This document shows, one piece after another, positions 8,117 through 64,000 of a stretch of DNA of 64,000 nt (positions within the stretch are counted from its first letter, which is position 1; the number at the start of each line of letters is the position of its first letter). The notes under the pieces were generated by a model. The model ran no database searches and had not been told where the DNA came from. It saw nothing but the letters and a program-made list of their open reading frames with translations. Both the position numbers and the translations under genes were made by a program. The stretch comes from Mycobacterium florentinum (lineage in GTDB: Bacteria; Actinomycetota; Actinomycetes; Mycobacteriales; Mycobacteriaceae): positions 3,534,001 through 3,598,000 of the forward strand of contig NZ_AP022576.1 in NCBI RefSeq assembly GCF_010730355.1, read 5' to 3'.

Positions 8117-9526
8117 TCAGGCGGGGCCGCGGCCGTCGCCGGCCAGCTTCAGCAGAAGTCGTGTTCCGCCCCACGGGCTGGCGTGCAGGGATGCGCTCCC
8201 GCCGTGCAATTCTGCCTGTTGGGCGACCAGCGCCAGTCCCAGCCCGGAGCCCGATCGCGATGCGGTCGACCCGCGGGAGAAGCGTTCGAACACGGCGGTG
8301 CGTTCGGATTCGGGGACGCCGGTGCCGTTGTCGTCGACCGCGATTTCCACACCTTCACCTGAACTGCTCACGGTGAGTTGAATCTTGGATGCGCCACCGT
8401 GTTTGACGGCGTTGGCAATGGCGTTGTCGATGACCAGCCGCAGACCGGTGGGCAACCCGACCATCAAGACGGTGGGCGACGGCACCAGCGAGACCTCCAC
8501 GTCGGGGTAGACGCGAAGCGCGTCGTGCGCGGCCCGATCCAGAAGTTCGGTGATATCGAACGGCACGAAGTCGTCGACGGTGGTCAGCTGGCCCTGCGCG
8601 AGTCGCTCCAGCGCGGTCAGGGTGGCTTCGATGCGGCTCTGGGTGCGGATGACGTCGCCGATGACCTCCTCGCGCTGTTCGGCGGCCAGTTCGAGTGTGG
8701 ACAGCACCTCGAGGTTGGTGCGCATGGCGGTCAGCGGGGTGCGGAGCTCGTGTGAGGCGACGGCGGCGAAGTCGCGGGCCGATTCGAGTGCCGCCTTCGT
8801 GCGTTGCTGCTCGTTGCCGATGCGGGCCAGCATCTGCTCGACCGCTTCGGCGATCTCGACGGCCTCGCGCACGCCGCGGACCTGGACCTCGTCGGGGCTG
8901 GACTGGGCATTGATGGCGCGGGCTTGCCGGGCCAGCAGCAGGAAGGGGTTGACCATGATCAACGAGATCACCCAGCCGACCAGGATCGTGCCGGTGATCA
9001 CGCCCGCGCAGATCAGCAACACCCGCAGGTGCAGTTCGTTGATCCGGTGCTGAGCTTCGGCCAGCGGCGCGGCGAGTGCAATCGACACCGGCCCCGCGTT
9101 AAAGGTGCGGACCCGATATTGCACGCCGTTGATGGTGGTGTTCGCGTAGCCGTTGACCAGTTTGGGTAAGACGATGTTGCTGGGCACCGACACCGTCAGT
9201 TCCCCAATGCGGGCGGTGCGCACCAGGTCGCCGTCCGGTGAGGGCCGATCCGGGGTGCTTTGGTGGGCGCTGTTGAGGAGCGTGTTGATGTCGCCGAGGC
9301 TGCTCACGGAGTCCAGGCGGCGGTCGAGCTGGCTGTATTGATCGTTGGTGACGCCGACCCACACCCATACGCCCAGCGTGACGACCAGGGCGATCACTCC
9401 CAATTGCGCAACGATGACGATGGTGCGCAACGACAAGACACGCATCGGCAGTCGAATTTTTCTCAACGCGCGAATGTTCGGCTCCCTCACCTGAGCTATT
9501 GCTGCTTCGCGACCATCATGGCCCAT
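8117..9526 (-). CDS. PrrB-like membrane sensor histidine kinase without adjacent regulator
   Basis: Up to 469 residues; the exact start is uncertain, and MRVLSLRTIVIV at 9445 is a plausible later start. Two membrane helices (around residues 32-56 and 166-192) flank a periplasmic domain with the PrrB-like GVQYRVRTF segment. A HAMP linker, the H-box (AAVASHELRTPLTAM), an N-box (DNAIANAVKHGG) and G-boxes (DNGTGVPE, GSGLGLALV) follow. The C-terminal half is very close to M. tuberculosis PrrB as I recall it. PrrB normally sits directly after prrA; here the neighbours are a SulP gene and an oxidoreductase gene, so this is probably a duplicated orphan kinase that may signal to the resident PrrA. Confidence 0.85.
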   Translation of the reverse strand: MGHDGREAAIAQVREPNIRALRKIRLPMRVLSLRTIVIVAQLGVIALVVTLGVWVWVGVTNDQYSQLDRRLDSVSSLGDINTLLNSAHQSTPDRPSPDGDLVRTARIGELTVSVPSNIVLPKLVNGYANTTINGVQYRVRTFNAGPVSIALAAPLAEAQHRINELHLRVLLICAGVITGTILVGWVISLIMVNPFLLLARQARAINAQSSPDEVQVRGVREAVEIAEAVEQMLARIGNEQQRTKAALESARDFAAVASHELRTPLTAMRTNLEVLSTLELAAEQREEVIGDVIRTQSRIEATLTALERLAQGQLTTVDDFVPFDITELLDRAAHDALRVYPDVEVSLVPSPTVLMVGLPTGLRLVIDNAIANAVKHGGASKIQLTVSSSGEGVEIAVDDNGTGVPESERTAVFERFSRGSTASRSGSGLGLALVAQQAELHGGSASLHASPWGGTRLLLKLAGDGRGPA

Positions 9527-9616
9527 TCACCGTTTGGGGATTCGCTCAAGCCGCATTACGCCAAAGACGTGTTGCGATGTGCAACTGAAATGGTTTCCGG
9601 TGCAACGACTCTCGAT

Positions 9617-10564
9617 TCACGCCAGCGTCAATTCGCTGGGCAGCCCGGCACTGCACGCGGCCTGCGCAAGGAGTTCGCCGAGCACCGGCCCGAACTTCAT
9701 CAGGTTGTTGCCGACGAAGCCGACCACCCGGCCCCGGCGCACCACCTTCCAGCCGTCCCCGCCCGCGTCGAGCCACGGAGCGTGCACCGAGAGGCAGTCC
9801 ACCTGGCCCACCTGCGACAGGGACGGAAAGAGCGCACGCACGCCGGCGGGCTCCGGAATCGGCTGACCGAACGCCCAGCGACCCGTGCTGCCGAGTGGCA
9901 GCCCGTAGCCCTGCGGCGCCGACAGACAGGCGGCACCGGTCGCGTCGGCGCCCGCGTAGGTGAAGCGGGTATGCGGGATGAGCTCGACATCGAGCGGGCC
10001 TAACAGGTCGGGTGTCTGGGCGCCCACGCACACCAGAACTTGGTCGCCCCGCGTCACGGTGCCGTCCGCCAGACGCACCGAGCCGTCGTCACCGAGCGAG
10101 ACGACCTGGCCCCGCCGGATCTCTACCCGGGCTGCCAACGCAGTCAGAGCACGGCGAATACGCAGGCTGCCGCCGAGCGGATCGAAGATCCCGGCCTCCC
10201 AGGGCGCCGCCACGAAGGGGATCCGGGCCTCGATCTCCTGGCGGTCAAGCCAGGAGAATTCGGCGCCGGCCTCCGTCATCGCGGTTGCGGTCTCCTCGGG
10301 TGGAGCCGCGGCGATAAAACCCTCGGAACCGAGCAGCCGCCCCACATCGAGCTCGCTTTCCCAGCGCTGCCAGCCGGCACGAGCCTGGATGGCGAGCCGG
10401 CATAACGCCGGGCGCTGATGTGCGATGCGGAAGATGCGCGCAAGGCCCGCGGACAATTCGGCGAACGGCTCGCCGCGTTCGAACACGATCACGGGCTCTC
10501 CGCGCCGCGACAACTCATAGGCGGCGGCCAGCCCGCATATTCCCGCGCCAACGATGATGATCAC
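9617..10564 (-). CDS. FAD-dependent amine/amino-acid oxidoreductase (DAO family)
   Basis: A 315-residue single-domain flavoprotein with an N-terminal Rossmann motif MIIIVGAGICGLAAAYELSR and the DAO-type C-terminal VVGFVGNNLMKFGP segment. The family oxidises the C-N bond of amines or imino/amino acids such as sarcosine, proline or glycine. Its ATG at 10564 has GGGGGAGG upstream and lies 31 bp after the selB stop, so it probably belongs to the selA-selB transcript. A direct role in selenium metabolism is not established; this could be a passenger. Confidence 0.82.
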   Translation of the reverse strand: MIIIVGAGICGLAAAYELSRRGEPVIVFERGEPFAELSAGLARIFRIAHQRPALCRLAIQARAGWQRWESELDVGRLLGSEGFIAAAPPEETATAMTEAGAEFSWLDRQEIEARIPFVAAPWEAGIFDPLGGSLRIRRALTALAARVEIRRGQVVSLGDDGSVRLADGTVTRGDQVLVCVGAQTPDLLGPLDVELIPHTRFTYAGADATGAACLSAPQGYGLPLGSTGRWAFGQPIPEPAGVRALFPSLSQVGQVDCLSVHAPWLDAGGDGWKVVRRGRVVGFVGNNLMKFGPVLGELLAQAACSAGLPSELTLA

Positions 10565-10595
10565 GTAAGTGCCTCCCCCGCAACGGTATTAGCCA

Positions 10596-12377
10596 TCAGC
10601 GGACCACTTCGCGGTGCCCGGCGTCCAGTCGTCGGGTCCAGCCGCGCGAGTCGAGATGCTCCAGCAACGGAATCACCACCCGCCGGGTGGTGCCGAGTGC
10701 CTGCCGCGCCTGGCTCGTGGTGAACGGCTGGTCGAGCCGGGCCAGCTCCCGCATCGCCAGGGCCGGCGCGGTGGGCAACAGCACCACCCCGTCGCGCAGC
10801 CGCAGCACCCGCCCGACACGTTCGGCCGCGGCCAGTTCGCGCCCGGTGAGCTTCAGCGCCGACAGGTCATCGGCCTCCGGCGCGTGAAACGGCTGGGCCC
10901 GCAACCGGGCTTCCAACTCGCTGACCGCTGCCTCCGCGCAACCGAGATCGTCGCCGGCACCGGCCACCCGAATGTGGCCGCCGTGCCGTTCGAGACCCGC
11001 GTCGCGGGCGACAGCGTCGAGCAGCGATTCGTCAGGCAGGGCCAGCAGGTCGCGCGCTGCCCCGCGAGATAGCCCTTCTGCCAATGGGTCTCGCGTGTGT
11101 AGCTCCTCGACCGCGGCCCGCAGCCGCTGCCGCCAGGCGTCGTACGTCGCGTCGTGCACCCACCAGTCGTCGAGCACCCGCACGCCCTCGGGCGGCCCAG
11201 TCGCCGAGGCCAGCAGCCCCAGCCGACGGAGATGACTCTCCCGCACCGCACCGCGCCGGGCCACCTCGGCGCCGACGTCGCCGGCCGCGTTCATCGCGCT
11301 CAGGGCTGCGGCCCGGCGGGTTCCGTCACCGCGCCGCCGTAACACCGGGGGGTCGGCATCGAGCACCAGGGCGCCGCCCAGCACGCGCTGGCCACCCGGG
11401 TCGCGCAGCACCAACCGGTCGCCGAGCACGAGCGGCAGTCGCCGATCGAGCGTGAGCCGGCCATGGTCGTCGTCGAACGGCCGCAGCCGCGCGGGCACGG
11501 CCGCGGTGCCGACATGCACGACGAGGTGGGCCGCGGCCTCGGTCAGTGGACCTCCGGACGTGCGGCGGACGTCAAGCGTGCCGGTGCTCGGCCACGCCCC
11601 GGGGGTGACCAGCGCATGCCCGCGGCGGACCACATCGCGCGGGACGCCGCGCAGGTTGAGTGCGACCCGGGCCACCGGTCCCAGCGTCGGGTAGGGCTCG
11701 CCCCGGCTCTGCAAACCGCGGATCACCACCGACTGCGGCTGGTCCGCGCCGAGCACGTCCAGCCGGTCGCCGCGAGCCACTGTGCCGGCCGCGAGCGTCC
11801 CGGTCACGACGGTGCCCGCACCGGTGATCGTGAAGGAACGATCGACCCACAACCGCACCCGGGCGGTGGTTTCGGGGCCGGGCAGTTGCCCGAGGACGCG
11901 ATCGAGGGTGGCACGCAATTCGGTGAGCCCGGTCCCCGCGACCGCGGACACGATGACCCCGGGCGCATCCCGCAGCCCGGCGCCGGCCAGCTCGTCGCGG
12001 GCCTGCGCCAGCACGGCCCCGGCATGGTCCGGCGCCCGGTCGGCGCGGGAGATCACGATCAGACCGTGCCGGATGCCCAGCGCAGCGAGCGCGTCGCGGT
12101 GGTCGCTGGACTGCGCCTGCCAGCCCTCGTCCGCGGCGACGACGAAGCAGACCACGGGCGCTGGGCCGAGGCCGGCCAGCGTGTTGGCCAGGAAGCGCTG
12201 GTGTCCGGGCACGTCGACGAAGGCCACCTCGCGGCCCGACGGCAGCGTGGTCCAGGCGAAGCCGAGGTCGATCGTCAGGCCGCGGCGCCGCTCCTCCTCC
12301 CAGCGGTCGGGCTCCATGCCCGTCAGCGCGCGGATCAGGGTGCTCTTGCCGTGATCGACGTGGCCGGCGGTGGCCAC
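10596..12377 (-). CDS. selB: Selenocysteine-specific elongation factor SelB
   Basis: A 593-residue translational GTPase that brings Sec-tRNA to UGA codons marked by a SECIS hairpin. The G1 motif is GHVDHGKS, followed by the SelB-like RRGLTIDLGFAW and G3 DVPGH; G4 is degenerate as SRAD in place of NKxD. EF-Tu-like beta-barrels follow, and the C-terminal ~250 residues are the winged-helix repeats that bind SECIS RNA (for example GRELAAAERVGRVLRL and RQALGTTRRVVIPLLEHLD). The only standard in-frame start is GTG 12377, 20 bp after the selA stop. It belongs with selA, tRNA-Sec, selD and the selenoprotein gene fdhA in this window. Confidence 0.95.
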   Translation of the reverse strand: MATAGHVDHGKSTLIRALTGMEPDRWEEERRRGLTIDLGFAWTTLPSGREVAFVDVPGHQRFLANTLAGLGPAPVVCFVVAADEGWQAQSSDHRDALAALGIRHGLIVISRADRAPDHAGAVLAQARDELAGAGLRDAPGVIVSAVAGTGLTELRATLDRVLGQLPGPETTARVRLWVDRSFTITGAGTVVTGTLAAGTVARGDRLDVLGADQPQSVVIRGLQSRGEPYPTLGPVARVALNLRGVPRDVVRRGHALVTPGAWPSTGTLDVRRTSGGPLTEAAAHLVVHVGTAAVPARLRPFDDDHGRLTLDRRLPLVLGDRLVLRDPGGQRVLGGALVLDADPPVLRRRGDGTRRAAALSAMNAAGDVGAEVARRGAVRESHLRRLGLLASATGPPEGVRVLDDWWVHDATYDAWRQRLRAAVEELHTRDPLAEGLSRGAARDLLALPDESLLDAVARDAGLERHGGHIRVAGAGDDLGCAEAAVSELEARLRAQPFHAPEADDLSALKLTGRELAAAERVGRVLRLRDGVVLLPTAPALAMRELARLDQPFTTSQARQALGTTRRVVIPLLEHLDSRGWTRRLDAGHREVVR

Positions 12378-12397
12378 GACATTCGAGACGTGAGTGC

Positions 12398-13717
12398 TCA
12401 GCGGTCCGCCTCGGGCATTGCGGCCAGCGCCGCCCGGACCGCGTCCAGCAGCCGGCCATCGTCGGACTCGGGGATGCAGCGCAGGTCCAGCAGGCAGGAG
12501 CCGTCGTGCACCCGGGGCAGCACCGCGGGGTCACCCGCGCGCAGGACGGCCGCCGCGGGCTCCGGAAGCCGAACCGCCCACCCGGGCAACGGGACGCCCG
12601 GGGCTCCACCGCCACCGACTCGGCCGTCGTGCGCGACGACGGACGCGCCGACCGCCTCGGCCAGACGTAGCGCCCGCGCCCGCAGTCGTTCGGGGTCGGC
12701 GTGCAGGGCCTGGGTCACCGGCGAGGTGCCGGCCCGGACCGTGGCCTCCAGCGCGGCGAGGGTGAGCTTGTCGGCGCGCACCGCGCGCGCCAGCGGATGC
12801 CGTGCCAATCGCGAGACCACATCGCCGCGGCCGAGCACGATGCCCGCTTGCGGCCCGCCGAGCAGCTTGTCGCCACTGGCGGTGATCACGTCGGCGCCGT
12901 CGGACAGCGTGGTGGCGGCGTCGGGCTCATCGGGCAGCAGTGGGTCCGGCGCAAGCAGCCCGCTGCCAAGGTCGACGACCAACGGCACCCGCTTCTCGGC
13001 GGCCAACGAGCGCAGCTCGGGCACCGCGACGGCCGAGGTGAACCCCTCGACGCGGAAATTGCTCTGGTGCACCTTCAGCAGGCATCCGGTCGTCGGCCCG
13101 ATCGCGTCGGCGTAGTCCTTCAAGTGGGTCCGGTTGGTGGTTCCGACCTCACGCAGGCGGGCGCCGGTGGAGGCGATCAGGTCGGGCAGCCGGAAGCCGG
13201 CACCGATCTCGATCAGCTCCCCGCGGCTCACCACGACTTCGCCGCCGGCCGCCAGGGCGGTGGTCGCCAGCACCAGCGCGGCGGCGCCGTTGTTGACCAC
13301 CAGCGCGTCCTCGGCGGCGGGGCAGGCATCCAGCAGCGCCTGGCGAAGCGCGACCGCGCGCTTCGAGCGGGTGCCGGTGTCGAGGTCGAGTTCCACATCG
13401 ACGTAGCCGCTCGCCGACACCAGTGCGTCGACCGCGCTGGCGGCCAACGGCGCACGACCCAGATTGGTGTGCACGACGACGCCGGTGGCGTTGAGCACCG
13501 GGCGCAATCTCGTGGTCCGGTGCTCGGCCAGCGACGCCACGACCGCGTCCTGCACCTGGTCGGGCGCCAGGTCGCCGCGGCGGGCCCGGTCCTGGATGTC
13601 GCGCACCACGGCCCTGACCGCCTGCTCGCCCAGCCGGTTTCGCGCCTCCTGCACCGGCGGAAGCGAAAGCAGTTGATCCGTGCGCGGAATCAGGCGGCGT
13701 GGGTCGACCTGTGTCAC
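12398..13717 (-). CDS. selA: L-seryl-tRNA(Sec) selenium transferase SelA
   Basis: A 439-residue PLP enzyme that converts Ser-tRNA(Sec) to Sec-tRNA(Sec) using selenophosphate. The GTG at 13717 is preceded by GAGGAGG; longer frames run back through the tRNA-Sec gene and are not real. Signatures are LNATGVVVHTNLGRAP, the NNGAAALVLA segment and the PLP lysine in ITASGDKLLGGPQAG. Length matches bacterial SelA. The start is only 20 bp beyond the 3' end of tRNA-Sec, so tRNA and selA-selB may share a transcript. Confidence 0.96.
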   Translation of the reverse strand: MTQVDPRRLIPRTDQLLSLPPVQEARNRLGEQAVRAVVRDIQDRARRGDLAPDQVQDAVVASLAEHRTTRLRPVLNATGVVVHTNLGRAPLAASAVDALVSASGYVDVELDLDTGTRSKRAVALRQALLDACPAAEDALVVNNGAAALVLATTALAAGGEVVVSRGELIEIGAGFRLPDLIASTGARLREVGTTNRTHLKDYADAIGPTTGCLLKVHQSNFRVEGFTSAVAVPELRSLAAEKRVPLVVDLGSGLLAPDPLLPDEPDAATTLSDGADVITASGDKLLGGPQAGIVLGRGDVVSRLARHPLARAVRADKLTLAALEATVRAGTSPVTQALHADPERLRARALRLAEAVGASVVAHDGRVGGGGAPGVPLPGWAVRLPEPAAAVLRAGDPAVLPRVHDGSCLLDLRCIPESDDGRLLDAVRAALAAMPEADR

Positions 13718-13737
13718 GTGCCTCCTCGATCCGCGTC

Positions 13738-13833
13738 TGGCGGAGGCGGACGGGAATCGAACCCGCCAGACCGAGATACTCGATCTCACCGGTTTTGAAG
13801 ACCGGGGGGACCACCAGGAACCCAAACGCCTCC
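13738..13833 (-). tRNA. selC: tRNA-Sec (anticodon UCA)
   Basis: Read on the minus strand, the gene starts GGAGGCG at 13833 and ends CGCCTCCG plus an encoded CCA (13738-13740). The anticodon loop CTTCAAA, closed by the ACCGG/CCGGT stem, gives UCA, which reads UGA. It is 96 nt with CCA, longer than normal tRNAs, as expected for the 8-bp acceptor stem and long variable arm of bacterial tRNA-Sec; the variable arm is around GAGATCGAGTATCTC. The T arm GGCGGGTTCGATTCCCGTC is canonical. It lies directly upstream of selA. Confidence 0.97.
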
Positions 13834-13899
13834 CTGCACAAACTAGCGTGGTCAGCGCCGATGCCGAATCTGGCGGCTCCCTCCTGCGGCGTTGAGTGT

Positions 13900-13969
13900 G
13901 CGGCCACGGCGTTGGGTGTGCGGCCACGGCGGCCATACCCGGCGTGTCGCAACCCTGGACGCACACCCA
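13900..13969 (-). repeat. Dispersed intergenic repeat, copy 2, with local tandem duplication
   Basis: The reverse complement of this stretch aligns with 5519-5590 (TGGGTGTGCGTCCAGGG, CGCCGTGGCCGCACACCCAA). At its left end a 20-bp unit is repeated in tandem with one mismatch at 13888-13907 and 13908-13927 (GGCGTTGRGTGTGCGGCCAC). It sits in the 237-bp gap between tRNA-Sec and selD and carries no convincing ORF. Confidence 0.55.
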
Positions 13970-14070
13970 AGGCCCAGGCGTCACACACGAAGACACGTGT
14001 GACGACGTTGACAGTTGTCGTCGTGCGGCGGGCGGGTTGTGAGCCGGCCCGTTCCTCGTAGGCTCGTGGC

Positions 14071-15054
14071 ATGACCCAGACCCAGACCCGGCTGACCGGC
14101 TATGCGCACGGCGGCGGCTGTGCCTGCAAGATCCCGCCCGGTGAGCTGGAAGAAGCGGTCCGCGGCCTGGTCGGACAGAACAGCGACAACGTCCTGGTCG
14201 GGCTCGACGACGGCGACGACGCGGCCGCGGTGTTGGTCGGCGACATCGCGGTGCTGTCCACCGCGGATTTCTTCACGCCCGTCGTCGACGACGCCTACGA
14301 CTGGGGCCGGATCGCCGCGGCCAACGCGCTTTCCGACGTCTACGCGATGGGCGGACGCCCGGTGGTCGCGATCAACCTGGTCGGCTGGCCGCGCGACGTG
14401 CTGCCGCTGGAATTGATGACCGAGGTGCTGCGCGGCGGCCTGGCGGTGGCGTCGGAGGCCGGCTGCCCGGTGATCGGGGGCCACTCCATCGACGACCCGG
14501 AGCCGAAGTACGGCATGGCGGTGACCGGTGTGGCGGACCCGAATCGGTTGCTGCGCAACGACGCCGCCCAGCCCGGGCTGCCGCTGACCCTCACCAAGCC
14601 GCTCGGTGTCGGGCTGCTCAACAATCGGCACAAGCAGACCGGCGAGGTGTTCGCGGAGGCGATCGCGACGATGACCCGGCTCAACCGCGACGCCGCCGAG
14701 GCCGCGGTGGCAAACGGTGTGTGCGCGGCCACGGATGTGACCGGCTTCGGGTTGCTCGGCCACCTTTACAAGATGTGCCGGGCCTCAAAGGTGGGCGCGG
14801 TCATCGACCGCTGCGCGGTGCCGGTGCTCGACGCGGGACGCGCGGCGCTGCGCGACGGCTTCGTCTCGGGCGGGACTCGCCGCAACCTCGATTGGGTCCG
14901 GCCGCATCTGCGTCCCGGCCCCGGCGTGACCGAGGATGAGCTGCTACTGCTCGCCGATGCGCAGACCTCGGGCGGTCTGCTCGTGGTGGGCGAGCTGCCC
15001 GGGCACCCGGTGATCGGCCACACCGTCACCGGCGAGGGCATCGAGATTCGCTAG
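14071..15054 (+). CDS. selD: Selenide, water dikinase (selenophosphate synthase) SelD
   Basis: A 327-residue ATP-dependent enzyme making selenophosphate, the selenium donor for SelA. The glycine-rich loop HGGGCACKIPP carries the catalytic cysteine, so this SelD is the Cys form and not itself a selenoprotein. Conserved DDAAAV, STADFFTP, GGHSIDDPEPKYG and ATDVTGFGLLGH segments agree with the family, as does the length. The gene diverges from tRNA-Sec/selA/selB and converges with the fdh operon, whose stop is only 6 bp away. Confidence 0.96.
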   Translation: MTQTQTRLTGYAHGGGCACKIPPGELEEAVRGLVGQNSDNVLVGLDDGDDAAAVLVGDIAVLSTADFFTPVVDDAYDWGRIAAANALSDVYAMGGRPVVAINLVGWPRDVLPLELMTEVLRGGLAVASEAGCPVIGGHSIDDPEPKYGMAVTGVADPNRLLRNDAAQPGLPLTLTKPLGVGLLNNRHKQTGEVFAEAIATMTRLNRDAAEAAVANGVCAATDVTGFGLLGHLYKMCRASKVGAVIDRCAVPVLDAGRAALRDGFVSGGTRRNLDWVRPHLRPGPGVTEDELLLLADAQTSGGLLVVGELPGHPVIGHTVTGEGIEIR

Positions 15055-15060
15055 CCGGCT

Positions 15061-16146
15061 TCAATCGGCGGTGGTGATCGAGTCGTCCGTGATCCCGGCC
15101 GCGCGGCGAGCGGCCAGCCGGCGTTTCTGCGGCTCCATCGTGTAGCGAGGATCGCGGGCGGATTCCTTGCCCGCCTCGAAGAAACCGAACCTCAGCATGG
15201 CCGACGCCGTCAGCAGCGCCAGGCCGGACAACGCGGCGACGTCGCGGCGGTGCCCACCGAGCAGTGCGCCCAAACCGCCTGCGGCGGCCAGTCTTTCGCT
15301 CCATGCCAGCAACCGGCCGGGCGTGCCGTGGTGCAGCGGCTCTCTGGTCACCGGGTCCATCCGGAATTCGGTGAACCGCGCGGAGATCAGGTCACTGACC
15401 GCGCCGATGACGGCCAGCTTGCGCGCGGGTGCGGCCTCGGCGACCGGGGTCGTGATCATCGCCAATCCCGACGCGGCCAGGCTCGCCGAGCTGGCGAACA
15501 CGAACGGCAGGTCGCGATAGGCGGCGTTCCACGTCGGGGTCGCGGTGTCGGTGAGCAGCACCGCGGTGTAGACCGCCAGCGGCGGCGACAGCACCGCCGC
15601 CCCGAGTCCCGCGGGTCCCTCCACGGCTCGCAGCACGGGGCGGAACGGGCCCAACGGAATTCGCTCGCCGAGCATTCGGTCGACCTCGGACACCGCGGCG
15701 ACCCCGATGCCCGCACTGAAGAGGCTCAGAATCCACGAGCCGATGCTCATCGGCGAGGTCAGCTTGACCGTCCGCAGCATGTTGGCAAAACGCTCGGGCC
15801 GGCCCAGGTCCTTCACCAGCGCGACCGCACCCAGCGACACCGCGATCAGTGCGGAAATTCTTGTGTTGCGGCGCAACGTTTTTCGGCCGGTGAGCTGAGC
15901 GCCCGCCGCCAGCAGGCCGGACCCGCCGGCGACGCCACCCAAGAACAGGTAGGCCGCCACTTCGTGTCCCCATGGCGGGGCCTTGACGACGGGGCGCCCG
16001 TAATACGAGGTGAATTCGGCGTCGGGAACCATCGGCATCTCGCGCGAGCCGTCACCACCGCCGCGCCGGCCCGCGCGCTTACCTTTGCGACGCCTGCCGC
16101 CCTTGGGCTCCGGCGGACGGAAGCTGTCGAATTCCGAGGTGCTCAC
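15061..16146 (-). CDS. Formate dehydrogenase membrane subunit, NrfD/PsrC type
   Basis: A 361-residue protein starting with GTG 16146, overlapping the stop of the iron-sulfur subunit gene by GTGA, so translation is coupled. The N-terminus is strongly basic (KGGRRRKGKRAGRRGG). Starting at about residue 50 come eight or so hydrophobic segments in the style of NrfD quinone-reacting anchors (VAAYLFLGGVAGGSGLLAAGA; KDLGRPERFANMLRTVKLTSPMS, in pieces KDLGRPERF and KLTSPMS). It should anchor the formate dehydrogenase to the membrane and pass electrons to menaquinone, instead of the cytochrome b subunit used in E. coli FdnI. Confidence 0.88.
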   Translation of the reverse strand: MSTSEFDSFRPPEPKGGRRRKGKRAGRRGGGDGSREMPMVPDAEFTSYYGRPVVKAPPWGHEVAAYLFLGGVAGGSGLLAAGAQLTGRKTLRRNTRISALIAVSLGAVALVKDLGRPERFANMLRTVKLTSPMSIGSWILSLFSAGIGVAAVSEVDRMLGERIPLGPFRPVLRAVEGPAGLGAAVLSPPLAVYTAVLLTDTATPTWNAAYRDLPFVFASSASLAASGLAMITTPVAEAAPARKLAVIGAVSDLISARFTEFRMDPVTREPLHHGTPGRLLAWSERLAAAGGLGALLGGHRRDVAALSGLALLTASAMLRFGFFEAGKESARDPRYTMEPQKRRLAARRAAGITDDSITTAD

Positions 16147-54808: not shown

Positions 54809-54954
54809 GCGCAAGCGCGGTCCTCGGAAATAGCGTCGTCAATACCGGTACGAACAACGCCCTCAGCTCTGGACGGCGGAGCCACCGAGAATCGCGTGTT
54901 TCGCGATGGTGCGCTCCCCAATGCCTTGTTGGCCGTGGACAATTGGGAGCGGGA

Positions 54955-56118
54955 ATGACCAGTCCCACGTCGGACGAATTGATCACCCCGGTGCGGAAAA
55001 CGCCGGACGACGGAATCCGACAGCCAGAGAAGGGCCTGGCGCTTTGCCTGTCGGGCGGCGGCTACCGGGCGATGGTCTTCCACGTCGGAGTGCTCTGGCG
55101 ACTCAACGAGGTCGGCCTACTGGCGAAACTCGATCGCATCTCCAGCGTCTCAGGCGGTTCGATCACCGCCGGCGTCCTGGCCAAGAATTGGAAGCGGCTG
55201 GCGTGGGACGCGGGGCAGGTCGCCGCCAACTTGGAAGACCTGCTCGTCAAACCCGTACGGCGGATGAGCCAAACCGCTCTCGACGTGAAGGCGGTTATCG
55301 GGGGAATACTGCCTTTCGGCGATTCGGCCGCCGATCGTGTCGCCGCGGCCTATCGCAAGCACCTCTTCGAGGACACCAGCCTGCAGGATCTGCCGGACAC
55401 GCCGCGGTTCGTCTTCAACTCCACCAACCTGGAGTCCGGCGTGCTGCTGCGGTTCAGCAAGCCCTACCTCGCCGACTATCGGGTGGGCCGAATCATCAAT
55501 CCCGACCTGCCGCTGGCGGTCGCGGTTGCCGCGTCGTCGGCCTTTCCGCCCGTGCTATCGCCCTGCACGCTGCACCTCAAGGGCCAGAGCTGGATCGACG
55601 AGCGGGGCAACACGCTTACCCACTCCGGCTTCCGCGACGAGATCCAGGTGACCGACGGCGGCGTATACGACAACCTCGGCCTGGAAACCGCGTGGAAGAG
55701 GTACCGGTCGATCATTGTCAGCGACGCCGGCGGCCAAGTCACCGACGACGCGGATCCCGCCACCGACCCGCTCCGGCAAAGCACTCGAGTGCTCGACCTC
55801 ATCCAGAACCAAGTCCGCGCGCTGCGCAAGCGCCAAGCGATCGGCTCCTTCAAATCCGGTCTGCGGCAGGGCATGTACATCGGCATCCGCAGCCAAGTCG
55901 CAAAATACGGCGGGGCAATACTGCCGGCCAACCCCGATCGCACGCGCGAACTCGCCGAGCTGAAAACGAGGCTTGCGCCGCTGTCCGACCCCGATCAAGA
56001 GCGCCTGATCAACTGGGGCTACACCATCTGCGACGCCGGCTTACGGACGCACCTGTCCGGTGAACTCACCGATCCCACCAAGACCGAGCTGCCCTACCCG
56101 AACGAGGCGTTGACATGA
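54955..56118 (+). CDS. Patatin-like phospholipase
   Basis: A 387-residue protein, first gene of a three-gene operon. The oxyanion hole is CLSGGGYRAMVFHVG, the nucleophile Ser66 is in SSVSGGSITAG (S at the -2 position instead of the usual G of GxSxG) and the dyad Asp234 is in VTDGGVYDN. No signal peptide or membrane helix is seen. Family members hydrolyse phospholipids; in CBASS (CapV) and related systems they damage the host membrane when activated. It is coupled by ATGA to the protease gene. The start ATG 54955 follows GGGAG. Confidence 0.9.
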   Translation: MTSPTSDELITPVRKTPDDGIRQPEKGLALCLSGGGYRAMVFHVGVLWRLNEVGLLAKLDRISSVSGGSITAGVLAKNWKRLAWDAGQVAANLEDLLVKPVRRMSQTALDVKAVIGGILPFGDSAADRVAAAYRKHLFEDTSLQDLPDTPRFVFNSTNLESGVLLRFSKPYLADYRVGRIINPDLPLAVAVAASSAFPPVLSPCTLHLKGQSWIDERGNTLTHSGFRDEIQVTDGGVYDNLGLETAWKRYRSIIVSDAGGQVTDDADPATDPLRQSTRVLDLIQNQVRALRKRQAIGSFKSGLRQGMYIGIRSQVAKYGGAILPANPDRTRELAELKTRLAPLSDPDQERLINWGYTICDAGLRTHLSGELTDPTKTELPYPNEALT

Positions 56119-58043
56119 CGGAGGAAACGACAATCTCCCGAAAGTTGGTCGATTACATCCTGGTTGGCACCGGCCCCGGTCGGCGGCACCTGCAGGGCTC
56201 ACCGATCCTGGGCGATGTGTGGACCGCGTACGTGCAAGACCTGAGTAAACCGGTCGATCTGCTCATCACGTCGCACAAGGGCACCACGGCCAACGACCTG
56301 GCTGCGGAAATCTTCAGTGAACTGCAAAAGATCCGCAGCGGTATCGCGCACGACGACGACCCGAGGGTCGCTCCGGTGCAGAACTATGTGGCCGCCCGCC
56401 TGTACTTCGACGAAGTGATACGGGTGTTGATCCCGATGACACAGTGGTGGCTCGATCCGAGGACGCGCAACGAATTCGACGCGTGGCTGAACTCCGGGAA
56501 ATCTGCGGCCGAAAACGGATCCGACCGGATGACTCAGACGCTCGATGATGTGCGGGTCCTGGTCGACGCATGGAACAAGGGGCCCTCGTTCGTCGACGAA
56601 TTGGTCAAGGATCCCACGGCCGGGATCCGTCACCGGCGCACAGCATTCGAGCGCTTCGTCGCGTTATGCACCCTGGTCTTGATGGTGCAGCGGCCCCCGG
56701 AGGAGACGGACCGCAAGCCGATGGCGCAAGCCAATTTGACCAAAATTCAGCGGAAGAACCGAGGCCTGCTGGTCGACACCAGCAGGGACGAGTTGCGCGA
56801 GCTGGTGGTCGATCTGATCTCCACGGATATGTCCCCGGCAAAGGAGGCGAAGGTCTGGCAGATCTCCCGGAACCGGCCGGCATCCACGGCGATCATGAAG
56901 TCGGTGCCGACCGTGAAAGCCGACGCGGCCCGGCGGCTGTTCGAACTCGACGGCAGCGGGATCACCTGGGCGGTAATCGATTCCGGGATCTACACGCAGC
57001 ACGGCGCGTTTGGTCAGCACCCGATCCGCAAGACGTATGACTTCACCTACTACCGCGAGGTCGTCAACCTCAGCAATGTCGACGACGTCGTTCGCAAGCG
57101 CAATCTCGCGACGATCGAGGCGGCTCGGGGCAACACGCTTCCGTCCGGCGCAGACCGAAAGCTCAAGCAGATCGCCAAGGCCGCCTGCAGACGTGAGCCG
57201 ATACGGTATGACTTGATCAAGGAGTTCCTGGAACTCGGCGGCGGCGACACACCACCACCACGGCCGTCCAGCGAGCACGGCACTCATGTCGCCGGCATCA
57301 TCGCCGCCTCGGTCGACGAAACGGGCCAAAAGCTGGTCACCGGCATGTGCCCGGGTATCGGTCTGTACGACTTGCGCATCATCGGATCCGACAAAGAGGA
57401 CACCGAGTTGGCGGTGATCGCCGCGCTGCAATTCGTCCGGCGCACAAACGAATTGGCGGGCGACATGCAGATCCAGGGGGTGAACATGAGCCTGTCGATC
57501 GAGCACGACGTGCGCAATTACGCCTGCGGAGCAACGCCGGTCTGCATGGAGGCCGAACGACTCGTCGACAGCGGGGTGGTCGTCGTTGCGGCGGCCGGAA
57601 ACTTCGGCTACCAGAACATTGTGGTCAACGACCGGCCATTCAATAACTATCTGGCGTTCAGCATCACCGACCCGGGCAATGCGGACCGCGTGATCACGGT
57701 GGGATCCACGCACCACTACAAGCCTTTCACCTACGGCGTGAGCTACTTCTCGAGCCGCGGTCCCACCGGCGACGGCCGTCTCAAGCCCGATCTCGTCGCC
57801 CCTGGCGAGCGCATCTACTCCTCGGTGCTGGACGACGATTGGGGCTATCTGGACGGCACCAGCATGGCCGCACCTCACGTGAGCGGCGCTGCGGCACTGC
57901 TGATGGCCCGCTATCCAGAACTGGTCGGACATCCCGACAAGATCAAGAAGATTCTCTGCGAGACAGCGACCGATCTCGGACGAGAGCGCAACTTTCAGGG
58001 CCACGGCCTACTCGATGTCCTTCGTGCACTACAGAGTCAATGA
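56115..58043 (+). CDS. Cytoplasmic S8 (subtilisin) protease with a long N-terminal domain
   Basis: A 642-residue serine protease. The triad is complete: Asp289 in VIDSGIYTQHG, His388 in SEHGTHVAGI and Ser583 in DGTSMAAPHVSG; the oxyanion Asn is in VVAAAGNFGY. No signal peptide is present, unlike secreted subtilases. Residues 1-280 are a mostly helical region of unknown function (e.g. DLLITSHKGTTAND, YFDEVIRVLIPMTQWWLD). Its start overlaps the patatin stop by ATGA and the MBL gene starts 11 bp after its stop. It may cleave the patatin or another partner as a switch; that is inference. Confidence 0.92.
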   Translation: MTEETTISRKLVDYILVGTGPGRRHLQGSPILGDVWTAYVQDLSKPVDLLITSHKGTTANDLAAEIFSELQKIRSGIAHDDDPRVAPVQNYVAARLYFDEVIRVLIPMTQWWLDPRTRNEFDAWLNSGKSAAENGSDRMTQTLDDVRVLVDAWNKGPSFVDELVKDPTAGIRHRRTAFERFVALCTLVLMVQRPPEETDRKPMAQANLTKIQRKNRGLLVDTSRDELRELVVDLISTDMSPAKEAKVWQISRNRPASTAIMKSVPTVKADAARRLFELDGSGITWAVIDSGIYTQHGAFGQHPIRKTYDFTYYREVVNLSNVDDVVRKRNLATIEAARGNTLPSGADRKLKQIAKAACRREPIRYDLIKEFLELGGGDTPPPRPSSEHGTHVAGIIAASVDETGQKLVTGMCPGIGLYDLRIIGSDKEDTELAVIAALQFVRRTNELAGDMQIQGVNMSLSIEHDVRNYACGATPVCMEAERLVDSGVVVVAAAGNFGYQNIVVNDRPFNNYLAFSITDPGNADRVITVGSTHHYKPFTYGVSYFSSRGPTGDGRLKPDLVAPGERIYSSVLDDDWGYLDGTSMAAPHVSGAAALLMARYPELVGHPDKIKKILCETATDLGRERNFQGHGLLDVLRALQSQ

Positions 58044-58054
58044 GGTGAATTCAC

Positions 58055-59341
58055 ATGGTCAACAACGTTTTCAGTCTTGAAGTTCTGCCCGCCAAGAAGG
58101 GCGACTGCCTACTGCTTCGGTTCGGGCCGAAGGCGAGCAAGAGGCAGAAGCTGGCGCTGATCGACGGAGGCCCCAGCGGCGTCTACGCAAACCACCTCGG
58201 GCCGCGGCTAAAGCAGCTGCGCGCCGAGAAGGGCGTGTCCGACGACGAACCGATGGTATTGGACTGGGTCATGCTCAGCCACGTGGACGACGACCACGCC
58301 AACGGACTGGTGCGACTGACCGAGGAGCTCAGGGCGCTGCCCGCCAACAGGTTCGTAAGGCCACAGCGGTTGTTCCACAACACTTTTGACAAAATCATCG
58401 GCAATGATGCCGCCGAGCTGAAAAAGGCCACCACCAACGGCTATGGAACGGCGTCGCTGACCGGGGACATCCCCATCGACCTGGTGCCGGACGACGCGAA
58501 GGTCGACGCCACCACATTCAACGACGCGCTGATGGTGCTCGCCGGCATCGAGCAGGGCATCGACCTGGCCGGCAACGCCGAGGTGCTGCAGATCCAGGTC
58601 AACGACGGCGAGGGCGGGCTGATCGTCGCCGAGGACGGCGGCACGGCGATCGAGATGGAAGGCGGCCTGAAGTTGAGCGTTATCGGGCCGATGCTCCCAG
58701 AAGTCAAGGCGTTACAAGAGGCGCACCGAAAGTGGTTGGAGGAACAAAAGAAGCGCCCGAAGCCACCGTCCGCCGCGCTGGCGGCCTACGTCGACGAGTC
58801 GGTGCCCAATCTGTCCAGCATTGTGGTGCTCGCCGAACTGGGTGGAAAGACGATCCTGTTCACCGGCGACGCCCGTGGCGACAAGATCCTCGCGGGGATG
58901 CGGCTCGTCGGTCTGGGCGACAGAATGCACGTCGATGTGCTGAAGGGACAGCACCACGGCAGCGACAACAATGTCACGCGAGACTTTTTCGAGCGCGTCA
59001 CCGCCGATCACTACGTGTTCTCCGGAAACGGTGAGCACGGCAATCCCGAGCGGGAAACGCTGGACCTGCTGCGCCAGGCACGCAACGCCGTCCGGCCCGA
59101 CGAGGACTACCAGATCTATTTGACCTACGAGATCAAAGACATCGACGCGCTGCGCAAGAGGGACTGGGAGATCAAGCAGAAACGGGCCAGGAGCCAGGGC
59201 CGCGATCCCGGGCCCAATTGGTCGGCCCCCAAACAGGGTCTGGTCGCGTTCTTCAAGAAGCACCCCGACATGGCGGCGCGGGTCGTGCCACTGCAGGGCG
59301 ATCTACCCAGGCACCGCATCGATCTGCTGGCCACGCCGTAA
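58055..59341 (+). CDS. ComEC-like metallo-beta-lactamase-fold protein
   Basis: A 428-residue soluble MBL-fold protein. The metal motif is SHVDDDHANG (H76, D78, D80, H81), the HxDxDH variant typical of ComEC/Rec2. Other ligands lie in TILFTGDARGD and KGQHHGSDNN. ComEC domains of this class are nucleases on transforming DNA; no ComEC membrane part is present here. It is the third gene of the patatin-S8-MBL operon. ATG 58055 is chosen; upstream GAGGTG is the likely binding site. Confidence 0.9.
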   Translation: MVNNVFSLEVLPAKKGDCLLLRFGPKASKRQKLALIDGGPSGVYANHLGPRLKQLRAEKGVSDDEPMVLDWVMLSHVDDDHANGLVRLTEELRALPANRFVRPQRLFHNTFDKIIGNDAAELKKATTNGYGTASLTGDIPIDLVPDDAKVDATTFNDALMVLAGIEQGIDLAGNAEVLQIQVNDGEGGLIVAEDGGTAIEMEGGLKLSVIGPMLPEVKALQEAHRKWLEEQKKRPKPPSAALAAYVDESVPNLSSIVVLAELGGKTILFTGDARGDKILAGMRLVGLGDRMHVDVLKGQHHGSDNNVTRDFFERVTADHYVFSGNGEHGNPERETLDLLRQARNAVRPDEDYQIYLTYEIKDIDALRKRDWEIKQKRARSQGRDPGPNWSAPKQGLVAFFKKHPDMAARVVPLQGDLPRHRIDLLATP

Positions 59342-59354
59342 CGGTCGAACGCGT

Positions 59355-60218
59355 CTACGCCGGGGCGGAAGATCGGCCGAAGTAGAGCTCTTGGGTTGCG
59401 ACGCAGACCATTTGGCCCTTGCGGTTGTACATCGTCGACGTCGTCAGCCCCCGGCCTGCGACACCGCTGGTCGACATCTGATCCGAGAGGACCCAGTCCG
59501 TCAGGTCGACCGGCCGGTGAAACCACAGTGCGTGGTCGATGAGGGCGTTGAACGTGCTGACGGGGGTGGCCCGCCGCATGACGAGTGCCGGCTCGACCAT
59601 CGTGGTTCCGGAGAGATAGGTCAGCAGGCAGCTGTGCAGCACCTCGTCATCCGGAACAGATCCGTTGGCCCGCCACCACATTCGCAGCCGTGGCGACGGC
59701 TCGCGCAGGTCGATGGCAAGCCGTGGCGGGGGGTCGACGTAGCGCAGCTCGAAAGGCCGGGGTGCGACCCAGTGACCGTCCAGTTCGTCCGCGTACGCGG
59801 CCAGCTGCTCGTGCATCGGCGCCAGCGAATCGGGACCGGCGATGTCGGGCATCGGCTGTTGGTAGTCGAGCGAATCGAATGGCACGTTGAACGACGCGAG
59901 CGCTTCGAGCAGGATCTGCCCGTCCTGGCGGGCCGTGATCTTGCGGGTGGACAACGTGCCACCGTCACGGGCCACGTCGACGTGGAGGTCGACGGGCTTG
60001 CGGGCATCGCCGGCTCGCACGTAGTAGACGTGCACGCTGTGCGCCGTGCGGCCCGGCGCGGTGAGGCTCGCCGCCATCAAGGACTGGGCGGCAATATGGC
60101 CCCCCACGATGTGGTGGCTCGGGTTGTCCAATTGCGTGGCGACGAAGTGGTGCTCGTCGACGCGAGCAACGTTGAGCGTGTCGATGACATCGGCCAGGAT
60201 CGGCCAGGGGTAACTCAC
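59355..60218 (-). CDS. Acyl-CoA thioesterase (TesB-like, double hotdog)
   Basis: A 287-residue thioesterase II protein with two hotdog repeats. The first has IVGGHIAAQSLMAA and HSVHVYYVRAGD; the second has the conserved LIDHALWFHRP with the usual catalytic aspartate and DWVLSDQMSTSGVAGRG. It hydrolyses acyl-CoA to free acid. GTG 60218 is used. It converges on the MBL gene and is not part of that operon. Confidence 0.88.
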   Translation of the reverse strand: MSYPWPILADVIDTLNVARVDEHHFVATQLDNPSHHIVGGHIAAQSLMAASLTAPGRTAHSVHVYYVRAGDARKPVDLHVDVARDGGTLSTRKITARQDGQILLEALASFNVPFDSLDYQQPMPDIAGPDSLAPMHEQLAAYADELDGHWVAPRPFELRYVDPPPRLAIDLREPSPRLRMWWRANGSVPDDEVLHSCLLTYLSGTTMVEPALVMRRATPVSTFNALIDHALWFHRPVDLTDWVLSDQMSTSGVAGRGLTTSTMYNRKGQMVCVATQELYFGRSSAPA

Positions 60219-61517: not shown

Positions 61518-63896
61518 CTACCGCGCCATGTTGGCGAATCGCGACAGGTGCAGCTGGTGGGCGACGGTGACCGTCTTGGTCGGGCCGTTGCGGTGCTTGG
61601 CCAGAATGAAATCCGCCTCGCCCCCGCGCGGGTCGTCACGCTCGAAAGCATCCGGCCGGTTCAGTAGGATGACCATGTCCGCGTCCTGCTCCAGCGATCC
61701 CGACTCACGAAGGTCGGACAGCATCGGCTTCTTGTCGGTGCGCTGCTCGGGACCACGGTTCAGCTGGCTGATCGCGACGACGGGTACCTCGAGCTCCTTG
61801 GCCAAAAGTTTGAGATGCCTTGAGAATTCGGAAACCTCGAGCTGCCGCGACTCGACCTTCTTGCCCGACGACATCAGCTGCAGATAGTCGACCACGACCA
61901 GACGCAGATCTGCCTTCTGCTTCAGCCGGCGCGCCTTGGCGCGGATCTCCATCATGGTCAGGTTCGGCGAGTCGTCGATATACAGTGGCGCCTCGCTGAT
62001 TTCGCTCATCCGCCGCGCCAGCCGCGTCCAATCGTCGTCGTTCATCCGGCCCGAACGCATATCGGCGAGTTTGATTTTCGCTTCCGCCGACAGCAGCCGC
62101 ATCACGATCTCGGACTTGCTCATCTCCAGCGAGAAGATCACGCTGGCCATGCGGTGCTTGATGGAGCACGAGCGCAAGAAATCCAATCCCAGCGTGGAGT
62201 TATGCGTGGGGATCATGGCGTTGCTCGCCAAATACATGTGGCTGTCGTTATCCACTTCGACACACCGCACCGGAACGGTCTCGATCGGGCGGACGTCCAC
62301 AACAAAGCGTGATCCCGAGTGCTGGGTGTTAGCACCAGCCCGGCGCTCCTTGTGCGCTATGGCTTTTCGCTGCAATGCGAACACCATGTCGTCGGTGCGG
62401 AACGTCAGCGTGTAGGCGATGCTGGACGACTCGCTGCGCCCCCGAACACGCTTGGTCGAGGTTTGGTAGCGATAGCCCAGGCTGACGATTAGCTCGGCCA
62501 CATCGCAGGCCAGCCGATGGTTGGTGACGCAGAATTGGACGGCCCCGCCCACGGTCACTGTTCCGTCGGTGTCGAGCAGGCCGGCGAGCAGTTCGCGGCG
62601 CTGCGTCTCGGACCCCCGCAAGTAATCCGTCGGAATGTGCTTGTTACCAAGCACTCCCAGGGCACGCAGATGCGCCTGCAATGTCTCTGCGACGTACCCG
62701 TCTGCTTCGATTCGCATGATGAGTTCCGGATCGGCTGTGGTGATCTGCGCTGCGGCGCTGTCATCCCCCAGCCAGGCGCCCAAAGTGTATGGCTGCACTA
62801 AGAACTCGCGGTCCGGCAGGTCCAGCGCACACGCATTGACCACGCTGTGGTTCGGCCGCCGGTCTTTCGTGTCGCAACGCAACGTTTCGGCGATCTCGGC
62901 CGTCGTGCGCACGGCCGCAAAGGTCCGTTGATTCGTGTAACGGTGGTAGCCGGTCGCCGCGGCTTGCGCCGATCTCCGGGACGCGCGTGTATCGGTCAGC
63001 CACTGGTGCTCCGCGTCGGCGACGATGACTGTCCCGTCGGAGAACTCGACCTCGTAGCAGGGCCGCCCCAGCATCACTTCGGTGGCGGCCACCACCCGCG
63101 TGGGCTTCCCGTCCGCGCCCAGCAACTCATCGCCGACTGCGATGTCACGCATCGTCGTCCAGCCGGTCGGCGTCGGCAGCGGCGTGTCCAACGCCAGCGC
63201 CTTCCCCACTCCAGGCCTGGCCGCCACGATGATCATTTGCCCGGCGTGCAGACCGTTGGTCACCTCGTCGAGTTCGGTGAAACCGGTCGGCACGCCACGC
63301 GCCACCCCGCCGTTGGAGGCGATGGCGTCGATCTCGTCCATCGTCGGCTGCAGCAGATCTTCGAGCGGAACGAAATCCTCCGAGGTTCGCCGTTCGGCAA
63401 CCTCGTAGATCTCCGCTTGGGCCCGGTCGACCACCTCGGCAACATCGGCACCCTCGGCGCCGGCGTAGCCGTACTGCACGACCCGCGTTCCAGCCTCCAC
63501 AAGCCGGCGCAGCAGCGCCTTCTCGGCCACGATGTCCGCGTAGTAGCCCGCGTTGGCTGCGGTCGGCACCGTCGAAATCAGGGTGTGCAGATAGGGCGCG
63601 CCGCCGACCCGGCGCAGCAGGTTGCGGCGGTCGAGTTCGGCGGCGACCGTCACGGCGTCAGCGGGCTCCCCGCGCCCGTAGAGATCCAGGATCGCGTCGT
63701 AGACGTTCTGGTGTGCCGGGCGATAGAAGTCGCCGGGGCGGACCCGCTCCAGCACGTCGGCGATGGCGTCCTTGCTCAGCAGCATCCCGCCCAGCACCGA
63801 CTGCTCCGCGGCCAGATCCTGCGGCGGTTGACGACTGAACTCCTCGCTGGGCGGCGGCGAGTCCATGCCAGGCGCCCGGTCATCTATGACAGCCAC
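61518..63896 (-). CDS. dnaB: Replicative DNA helicase DnaB with intein
   Basis: The precursor from GTG 63896 (GGGAGG upstream) is 792 residues; after removal of a 334-residue intein the helicase is 458 residues, as in other mycobacteria. The N-terminal part (DLAAEQSVLGGML) binds primase, the RecA-like core has Walker A split by the intein (ARPGVGK | STLGLDF), Walker B is LRLVVVDYLQLM and the end is LHLSRFANMAR. It unwinds the replication fork. Earlier ATG codons add residues not seen in the family. Full activity depends on correct protein splicing. Confidence 0.97.
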   Translation of the reverse strand: MAVIDDRAPGMDSPPPSEEFSRQPPQDLAAEQSVLGGMLLSKDAIADVLERVRPGDFYRPAHQNVYDAILDLYGRGEPADAVTVAAELDRRNLLRRVGGAPYLHTLISTVPTAANAGYYADIVAEKALLRRLVEAGTRVVQYGYAGAEGADVAEVVDRAQAEIYEVAERRTSEDFVPLEDLLQPTMDEIDAIASNGGVARGVPTGFTELDEVTNGLHAGQMIIVAARPGVGKALALDTPLPTPTGWTTMRDIAVGDELLGADGKPTRVVAATEVMLGRPCYEVEFSDGTVIVADAEHQWLTDTRASRRSAQAAATGYHRYTNQRTFAAVRTTAEIAETLRCDTKDRRPNHSVVNACALDLPDREFLVQPYTLGAWLGDDSAAAQITTADPELIMRIEADGYVAETLQAHLRALGVLGNKHIPTDYLRGSETQRRELLAGLLDTDGTVTVGGAVQFCVTNHRLACDVAELIVSLGYRYQTSTKRVRGRSESSSIAYTLTFRTDDMVFALQRKAIAHKERRAGANTQHSGSRFVVDVRPIETVPVRCVEVDNDSHMYLASNAMIPTHNSTLGLDFLRSCSIKHRMASVIFSLEMSKSEIVMRLLSAEAKIKLADMRSGRMNDDDWTRLARRMSEISEAPLYIDDSPNLTMMEIRAKARRLKQKADLRLVVVDYLQLMSSGKKVESRQLEVSEFSRHLKLLAKELEVPVVAISQLNRGPEQRTDKKPMLSDLRESGSLEQDADMVILLNRPDAFERDDPRGGEADFILAKHRNGPTKTVTVAHQLHLSRFANMAR
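62199..63200 (-). mobile_element. Class 3 intein with LAGLIDADG homing endonuclease in DnaB
   Basis: Encoded between the Lys and Ser of the P-loop. The intein begins with Ala (ALALDTPLP) in place of the usual Cys/Ser nucleophile and ends MIPTHN before Ser. The class 3 WCT set is present: Trp in block B (AEHQW, two residues after the block B His), Cys in block F (VRCVEVD) and Thr in block G (PTHN). The two endonuclease motifs are LGAWLGDDS and LLAGLLDTDG, with the acidic residues kept, so the homing enzyme may be active. Size is 334 residues. Confidence 0.93.
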
Positions 63897-64000
63897 AGAC
63901 TCAACACCTCCCTTACGAAAACATGATACGAACATACATTCGAGAGCCGACACTCAGCGACGTCGATCAAGGCACTCCCACTCCGGACCCAGGCACCCGT
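63897..64000. other. Upstream of dnaB to window edge
   Basis: The last 104 bp hold the dnaB ribosome binding site (GGGAGG at about 63907-63912) and probably its promoter. No gene is visible. Confidence 0.5.

Follow-up and report, generated by a model that had tools for sequence, protein, structure and literature searches.

A patatin, subtilase and MBL-fold gene cassette of Mycobacterium florentinum as a candidate protease-triggered defence system

Results and discussion

A stretch of 64,000 nucleotides of the Mycobacterium florentinum genome (contig NZ_AP022576.1, positions 3,534,001 to 3,598,000 of the forward strand; hereafter the window) carries three co-directional genes on the plus strand that encode, in this order, a patatin-like phospholipase, a subtilase of the peptidase S8 family (S8) and a protein with a metallo-beta-lactamase (MBL) fold. 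We lean towards reading this trio as a two-effector, protease-triggered abortive (suicide) defence cassette, a reading that builds on features computed directly, namely the operon, its recurrence, the co-variation of the three genes, the exchange of both lipase and protease, the homology of the MBL protein to gated nucleases and the propeptide-like N-terminus of the protease. The S8-MBL pair forms the constant core; the third position is taken by exchangeable lipases, and many loci have none.

In the open reading frame (ORF) map of the window, which is part of a genome of 6.22 Mb in a single contig, the patatin gene spans 54943..56118 (391 amino acids (aa) from a TTG start, 387 aa from the ATG at 54955; Pfam PF01734, 1.4e-19), the S8 gene 56115..58043 (assigned by Pfam) and the MBL gene 58055..59341 (428 aa, ComEC-like; Pfam Lactamase_B, 8.4e-5). 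The first two genes overlap in an ATGA and the third follows after a spacer of 11 bp, as described in an initial annotation of this DNA. The same annotation had found no signal peptide in any of the products, and a hydrophobic N-terminal stretch is indeed absent from all three, the top 11-residue Kyte-Doolittle mean being 1.15 to 1.45 in windows starting in the first 45 residues, which is a measure of hydrophobicity and not a dedicated signal-peptide predictor. The catalytic residues, also reported there as intact, are conserved across the alignments of relatives. Patatin Ser70 and Asp238, which had been given as Ser66 and Asp234 in the numbering from the ATG, are found in 37 and 36 of 38 rows, the remaining rows being gaps; S8 Asp289, His388 and Ser583 in 77, 78 and 78 of 79, again with gaps in the rest, the Ser gap corresponding to a broken copy (L100); and MBL His76, Asp78, Asp80, His81 and Asp272 in 86, 85, 86, 85 and 88 of 88, where the non-matching rows are gaps save for L090, which differs at positions 78 and 81.

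The recurrence of the pair was analysed in 88 MBL loci, comprising 80 genome loci, seven plasmid loci and the window. The genome loci are the best 80 of 143 relatives by similarity to the window MBL, found in genome contigs by a scan with the MBL alignment; this choice favours patatin-linked relatives, and near-duplicates (such as L051 or L097/L099/L127) are kept in the counts. They cover ten phyla in all, with 41 loci in Pseudomonadota, 14 in Acidobacteriota, ten in Actinomycetota, four each in Myxococcota and Planctomycetota, six in five other phyla and one unplaced. A strong S8 match is present in 78 of the 88 loci, and in 74 the S8 stop codon lies 6-55 bp before the MBL gene; the four odd cases have spacings of 116 bp, 368 bp and 6.2 kb (L118) or a broken S8 gene (L100). 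The last of these was considered as an S8-MBL fusion of the Rosetta-stone type and rejected, because its ORF lacks the stretch with the catalytic Ser and its MBL end is garbled, so that it is a broken copy and not evidence. Among the ten loci with no strong S8 match, a weaker upstream S8 is found in L046, L126 and L128, a contig end is reached at L083, L092 and L105, and an upstream S8 was not seen at L073, L090, L106 and L109. At L073 (Desulforhabdus, 8013-9260), a close MBL relative stands behind a citrate-type transporter as an orphan. The trio recurs far beyond close relatives, with its order conserved; a restriction to close relatives, which the initial annotation had named as one outcome that would speak against its proposal, was not found. 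Further examples of the trio are those of Sinorhizobium meliloti (NZ_CP021816.1, 160179-164554) and of Bradyrhizobium.

The carriage of both S8 and MBL is sporadic, the full-length protease being found in four of the 198 genomes searched in the genus, with a partial match in another (G144), and the MBL protein in four of 396 genomes of the phylum, the M. florentinum genome included in both counts. The window S8 is 98% identical to a protease of Mycobacterium triplex DSM 44626, and no simple empty site was seen among the other genomes of the genus, in which pieces of the window flanks match separate places. A tblastn search of plasmids retrieved S8 relatives of 37-45% identity, in five records with a single match spanning 80% or more of the query, and they lie directly before MBL relatives on plasmids of Sinorhizobium, Methylorubrum, Miltoncostaea and Rhizobium; in one of the five records (L043) the S8 gene is split into two ORFs, and a Paroceanicella plasmid has the same S8-then-MBL order with a shorter aligned part. 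Of the first six pair-carrying plasmids, four are typed as conjugative and two are not. Twenty phage records were matched, none with 80% coverage, and the 15 matches listed hit only the common S8 core. Distances among S8 and MBL sequences are correlated with r=0.91 over 72 loci, a set from which rows with broken, partial or displaced S8 (L043, L045, L077, L100, L118, L119 and L124) are omitted, and none of 999 permutations reached this value.

It is hardly credible, in view of these results, that the S8 protein serves housekeeping or stress proteolysis, as a mycosin-like enzyme or an intracellular subtilase of general function whose neighbours are there by accident. Housekeeping enzymes do occur within the large S8 family, and the mycosin of type VII secretion is among the family matches of the window protein, but the latter misses the cut-off of the mycosin model TIGR03921 (102.4 vs 278.75 bits) and its N-terminus is not hydrophobic. 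The sporadic distribution and the same gene order across ten phyla also speak against such a role, which recurrence largely refutes.

The window MBL is, as judged from sequence, related to protease-gated pro-nucleases. Its PADLOC matches are LmuA (5.3e-41, residues 6-374), Avs1a (2e-25) and RTasMBL (5.2e-22), and the profile of its family gives 173 bits with an MBL of Agrobacterium (L156), called canu-like from its caspase/unknown/MBL gene order, and 154 bits with an LmuA-model MBL on a Providencia plasmid (L155). The latter (1.4e-120 to the LmuA model) is the first gene of an ABC-three-component operon at 9004-15142. Protease-gated MBL pro-nuclease pairs have been described for Hachiman (HamM), AVAST (Avs1a) and Lamassu in Tuck et al. 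2025 (PMC12799240), where cleavage of HamM takes place at two isoleucines in loops, 100 residues from each other, Avs1a requires two isoleucines at the same distance, and CanC is a caspase-linked case. The model of the window MBL has two stretches of lower confidence, also about 100 residues apart, which we propose as gates: loop 1 (residues ~131-160, 58445..58534) has predicted local distance difference test (pLDDT) block values of 61, 64 and 71 and contains Ala133, present in 65 of 84 rows, and loop 2 (residues ~231-250, 58745..58804) has pLDDT 79 at 231-240 and 63 at 241-250 and contains Ala243, present in 82 of 88. The initial annotation had proposed a sensor or nuclease on account of a ComEC-type relation to nucleases; the nuclease relation is sustained by the homology to antiphage MBL nucleases, while a role as the substrate-effector of the protease is more likely than that of a sensor. 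It could also be the case that the MBL protein processes the products of the lipase, as a phosphodiesterase or an enzyme resembling phosphorylcholine esterase, with S8 maturing either MBL or lipase and no nuclease involved. This is distinctly unlikely, since its profile prefers ComEC (9.1e-8) over Pce (1.4e-3), the antiphage models match as strongly as given above and many loci have neither lipase.

With regard to the protease, for whose N-terminus the initial annotation had proposed a structure prediction, the S8 model aligns with unprocessed pro-subtilisin structures, propeptide included, for which reason the protein is probably a cytoplasmic zymogen. Its N-terminal ~262 residues (56115..56900) would be a propeptide-like inhibitory region containing an insert, mostly helical, at residues ~98-238, and the catalytic domain with the conserved Asp289/His388/Ser583 triad follows (56901..58043; PF00082, 1.9e-41). 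The protease switch postulated earlier is thereby supported as likely.

A patatin of the window subfamily is found in 38 of the 88 MBL loci, a count that includes fragments (such as L065 and L059) and the distant L128 (141 bits); L098, whose patatin fragment has 102 aa, is counted as lacking it. The patatin gene is mostly upstream, and the gap between it and the S8 profile is -14 to +24 bp in 18 of 36 measurable loci. The subfamily is a dedicated one: only one of the seven other patatins found in the M. florentinum genome matches its profile, with 24 bits vs 712, and no match to the MBL or protease profiles was seen within 1.5 kb on each side of those seven. Patatin distances correlate with those of S8 (r=0.83) and MBL (r=0.85) over 33 loci, the fragments L059, L065 and L094 being additionally omitted, and again none of 999 permutations was as high. 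Patatin effectors occur in CBASS, and the window patatin resembles them as an intracellular patatin and likely membrane effector; it differs in that its partners are a protease and an MBL protein and in having no PADLOC match at E 0.1. The membrane-attacking effector of the initial annotation is supported as a lipase with a possible action on the membrane.

In seven of the 88 loci the gene after MBL encodes instead a Tle1-like phospholipase (PF09994, 7/7 by Pfam). Because the contig is cut or S8 is not adjacent in four of these seven, an extra patatin is possible there. In a tree of S8 sequences obtained by a quick method (75 rows, 72 labelled, omitting L100 and another three rows whose S8 does not exceed 450 aa), the partner label patatin, Tle1 or other needs at least 17 changes, and M. 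hubeiense (L056) and a Mycobacterium metagenome-assembled genome (MAG; L057), both with Tle1, have as sister group five mycobacteria and one actinomycete MAG, all with patatin. Judging from the seven loci and these sister mycobacteria, a single role seems to be shared by lipases of two unrelated families. PF09994 is named after type VI secretion system (T6SS) Tle1 effectors, and the trio could be an inter-bacterial toxin or secretion cassette that exports both kinds of lipase, Tle1-like and patatin, and in which protease and MBL are processing partners. We regard this as highly unlikely, since the window proteins have no hydrophobic N-terminal signal, mycobacteria, which are not known to have a T6SS, are among the carriers, and we noticed no T6SS gene among the annotations of the plasmid loci, although no T6SS profile search was made. 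Further neighbours of the pair occur in low counts: DUF4062 (weak in L097; L099 and L127 by clustering), FRG plus pYEATS (L042; L043 by clustering) and a Pycsar TIR (L040). Small ORFs of 175-202 aa with no Pfam match overlap or closely precede S8 at three loci where no lipase was found (L095, 5252-5806; L113, 5244-5771; L116, 86-694) and are possible further partners.

The same patatin is also associated with other peptidase-MBL pairs. A search of plasmids with the window patatin rendered 34 records, and 17 loci from the 20 listed were examined; these records are not independent, since nearly all come from rhizobia and L160 is closely related to L167. Two of the 17 carry the S8-MBL trio. Seven have a protein of ~630-720 aa beside a larger MBL (~500-555 aa), in varying order and strand (L157, 5977-10692; L160, 5962-10599; L163, L164, L166, L167 and L171, the genes of the latter being broken). 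This protein is classed as a metalloprotease from the motif HETTH...E(A/I)AD in four of four sequences inspected, and a phmmer comparison of that of L160 with solved structures gave no match. By its sequence features, patatin with HETTH metalloprotease and MBL represents a sister cassette with an unrelated protease. In a tree of 49 patatin rows (omitting L059, L065, L090 and L094), which is rough and has several long branches, the S8 and metalloprotease labels need four changes. At L162 (2375-7167) a patatin of the window family is divergent from a canu-like operon of caspase, 404-aa protein and MBL, and at L169 (1385-6143) an MBL with only 23 bits and a 757-aa protein precede such a patatin; read by eye, the 757-aa protein is possibly an E1(ThiF)-JAB fusion, and the locus a relative of the '6A-MBL' system that carries a lipase. 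At L158 a similar protease is present, with an MBL piece 3.6 kb away, at L159 there is only an MBL (48 bits) at ~2 kb, and no MBL of these profiles was found within 5-6 kb at L161, L168, L170 and L172.

Compared with the Hachiman, AVAST and Lamassu gated pairs, as presented in PMC12799240, the window cassette shares a related MBL, an adjoining protease gene, a pair of loop regions spaced by about 100 residues and a mobile and modular character. In those systems a trypsin-like protease domain is fused to a defence enzyme, whereas the window protease, neither trypsin-like and fused nor caspase-like, is a standalone Peptidase_S8 with a propeptide-like domain, the order is protease-MBL and the only extra coupled gene is the lipase. 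The canu (caspase-nuclease) system of the same text also has a standalone protease upstream of a related MBL, but it uses a caspase, and the window has no CanB counterpart and does have a lipase. The window MBL misses the Avs1a equivalog cut-off of AVAST type 1 (128.4 bits vs 420), and none of the three proteins, which are the only coupled products, has a STAND match. As for an LmuB partner, judged from the ORF map only with no profile scan of the neighbours, the next large ORF 3' of MBL (59355-60218) is on the opposite strand. The MBL protein also falls short of ComEC/Rec2 (31.9 bits vs 190.05) and has, with 428 aa and a top 19-residue Kyte-Doolittle mean of 1.35, no membrane channel domain. 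IetAS consists of an AAA ATPase and an S8 protease, and is alike in having an S8 protease in a defence-type operon; it differs in that the window has MBL and lipase and not an ATPase, the window S8 giving 25.8 bits to IteS against a cut-off of 900 with only patatin and MBL coupled. The principle of the protease-gated MBL nuclease is already published in PMC12799240, whose text states, citing its fig. S2, that proteases from 'other diverse families' likewise accompany homologues of the nuclease, so that the S8 pairing may already be in that figure; in its main text, 'subtil' appears only within Bacillus subtilis, and patatin and phospholipase are absent. Among the open-access PMC papers listed in our searches, no title or abstract opening describes subtilase, MBL and patatin together, nor the subtilase zymogen, the patatin/Tle1 exchange or patatin with a metalloprotease-MBL pair.

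Several plasmid relatives adjoin known defence genes. On pCMU01 of Methylorubrum CM4 (L040, 5457-12132) a Pycsar cyclase (PycC, 2e-220), an E2-domain protein and PycTIR (5.2e-92) directly precede the S8-MBL pair; the placing of an E2 protein between the cyclase and the effector seems unusual to us. The metalloprotease cassettes of L157 and L160 adjoin a CBASS cyclase gene, and those of L160 and L167 a DUF1837 and DEAD-helicase pair, a combination known as the Hachiman signature. A PADLOC scan (E<=1e-20) compared the flanks of 20 loci with control stretches of the same 20 genomes, covering 118 of 128 eligible flank proteins (200-700 aa; 144 of >=200 aa) and 114 of 178 eligible control proteins (195 in all). 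The flanks rendered mad3 (4) and dGTPase, ThsB-TIR, SoFic, mad8, CARF and RtcR (1 each), and the controls HerA, SIR2, ShosA, mad3 and PsyrA (1 each) and three further families. Elsewhere in the window, an 811-aa ORF at 61518-63953 on the minus strand, read by eye, is a DnaB-type helicase with an apparent intein.

On the reading that we favour, in the uninfected cell S8 would be a cytoplasmic zymogen, kept inactive by an enlarged propeptide-like domain, and MBL an inactive nuclease whose active site is restrained by the two flexible loops. A trigger, probably an infection signal sensed by the helical insert of the prodomain, would free the protease, which would cut the MBL loops (candidate sites Ala133 and Ala243), so that the nuclease degrades DNA; the patatin, or the Tle1-like lipase elsewhere, would degrade the membrane lipids of the cell itself, either released by the protease too or acting in parallel. 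The trigger, MBL cleavage, DNase and lipase activities and antiphage outcome are what we infer. Two results limit this reading. The check for defence islands called for by the initial annotation showed no clear PADLOC enrichment at the 20 loci, for the proteins covered, but several plasmid relatives do neighbour Pycsar, CBASS or a Hachiman-like pair. Moreover, neither lipase was found in 31 of the 66 loci with full context. The protease-MBL pair can therefore apparently work without a lipase. Many of its non-lipase neighbours are ordinary metabolic genes, and where this is so the pair may stand alone.

The lipase-free loci would also fit if the MBL nuclease is gated by the protease as proposed and patatin or Tle1 is an independent co-travelling effector or cargo, untouched by the protease. 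Patatins located downstream (L091, L101, L128) or with an intervening gene (L044), and the four of 17 plasmid patatins with no MBL nearby, point in the same direction, but the tight patatin-S8 coupling, the correlated divergence and the seven loci where the slot is taken by a lipase from a different family argue against it, and we consider such independence rather unlikely. Of the overall proposal of the initial annotation, recurrence, nuclease kinship and a likely switch stand, whereas the sensor role is less likely; its trio is recurring and order-conserved, but around an S8-MBL core with an exchangeable lipase.

Conclusions

A broader view, possible though less likely than not, is that the S8 zymogen acts as a master switch that would open a gated nuclease and release a lipase, so that DNA and membrane are destroyed together, and that a single general immune architecture, 'peptidase + MBL nuclease + lipase', has been put together time and again from peptidases of unrelated families (subtilase, HETTH metalloprotease, perhaps caspase and E1-JAB). 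If the proposed mechanism is true, the principle of the protease-activated pro-nuclease would extend to subtilases with a classical propeptide, and the added lipase arm would be a bacterial counterpart of a protease cascade that strikes DNA and the membrane simultaneously. From the exchange of unrelated proteases and lipases around MBL one can predict cuts at the conserved loop alanines and protease-dependent activation of the lipase. The trio may thus be an unstudied relative of the protease-triggered antiviral systems of bacteria.
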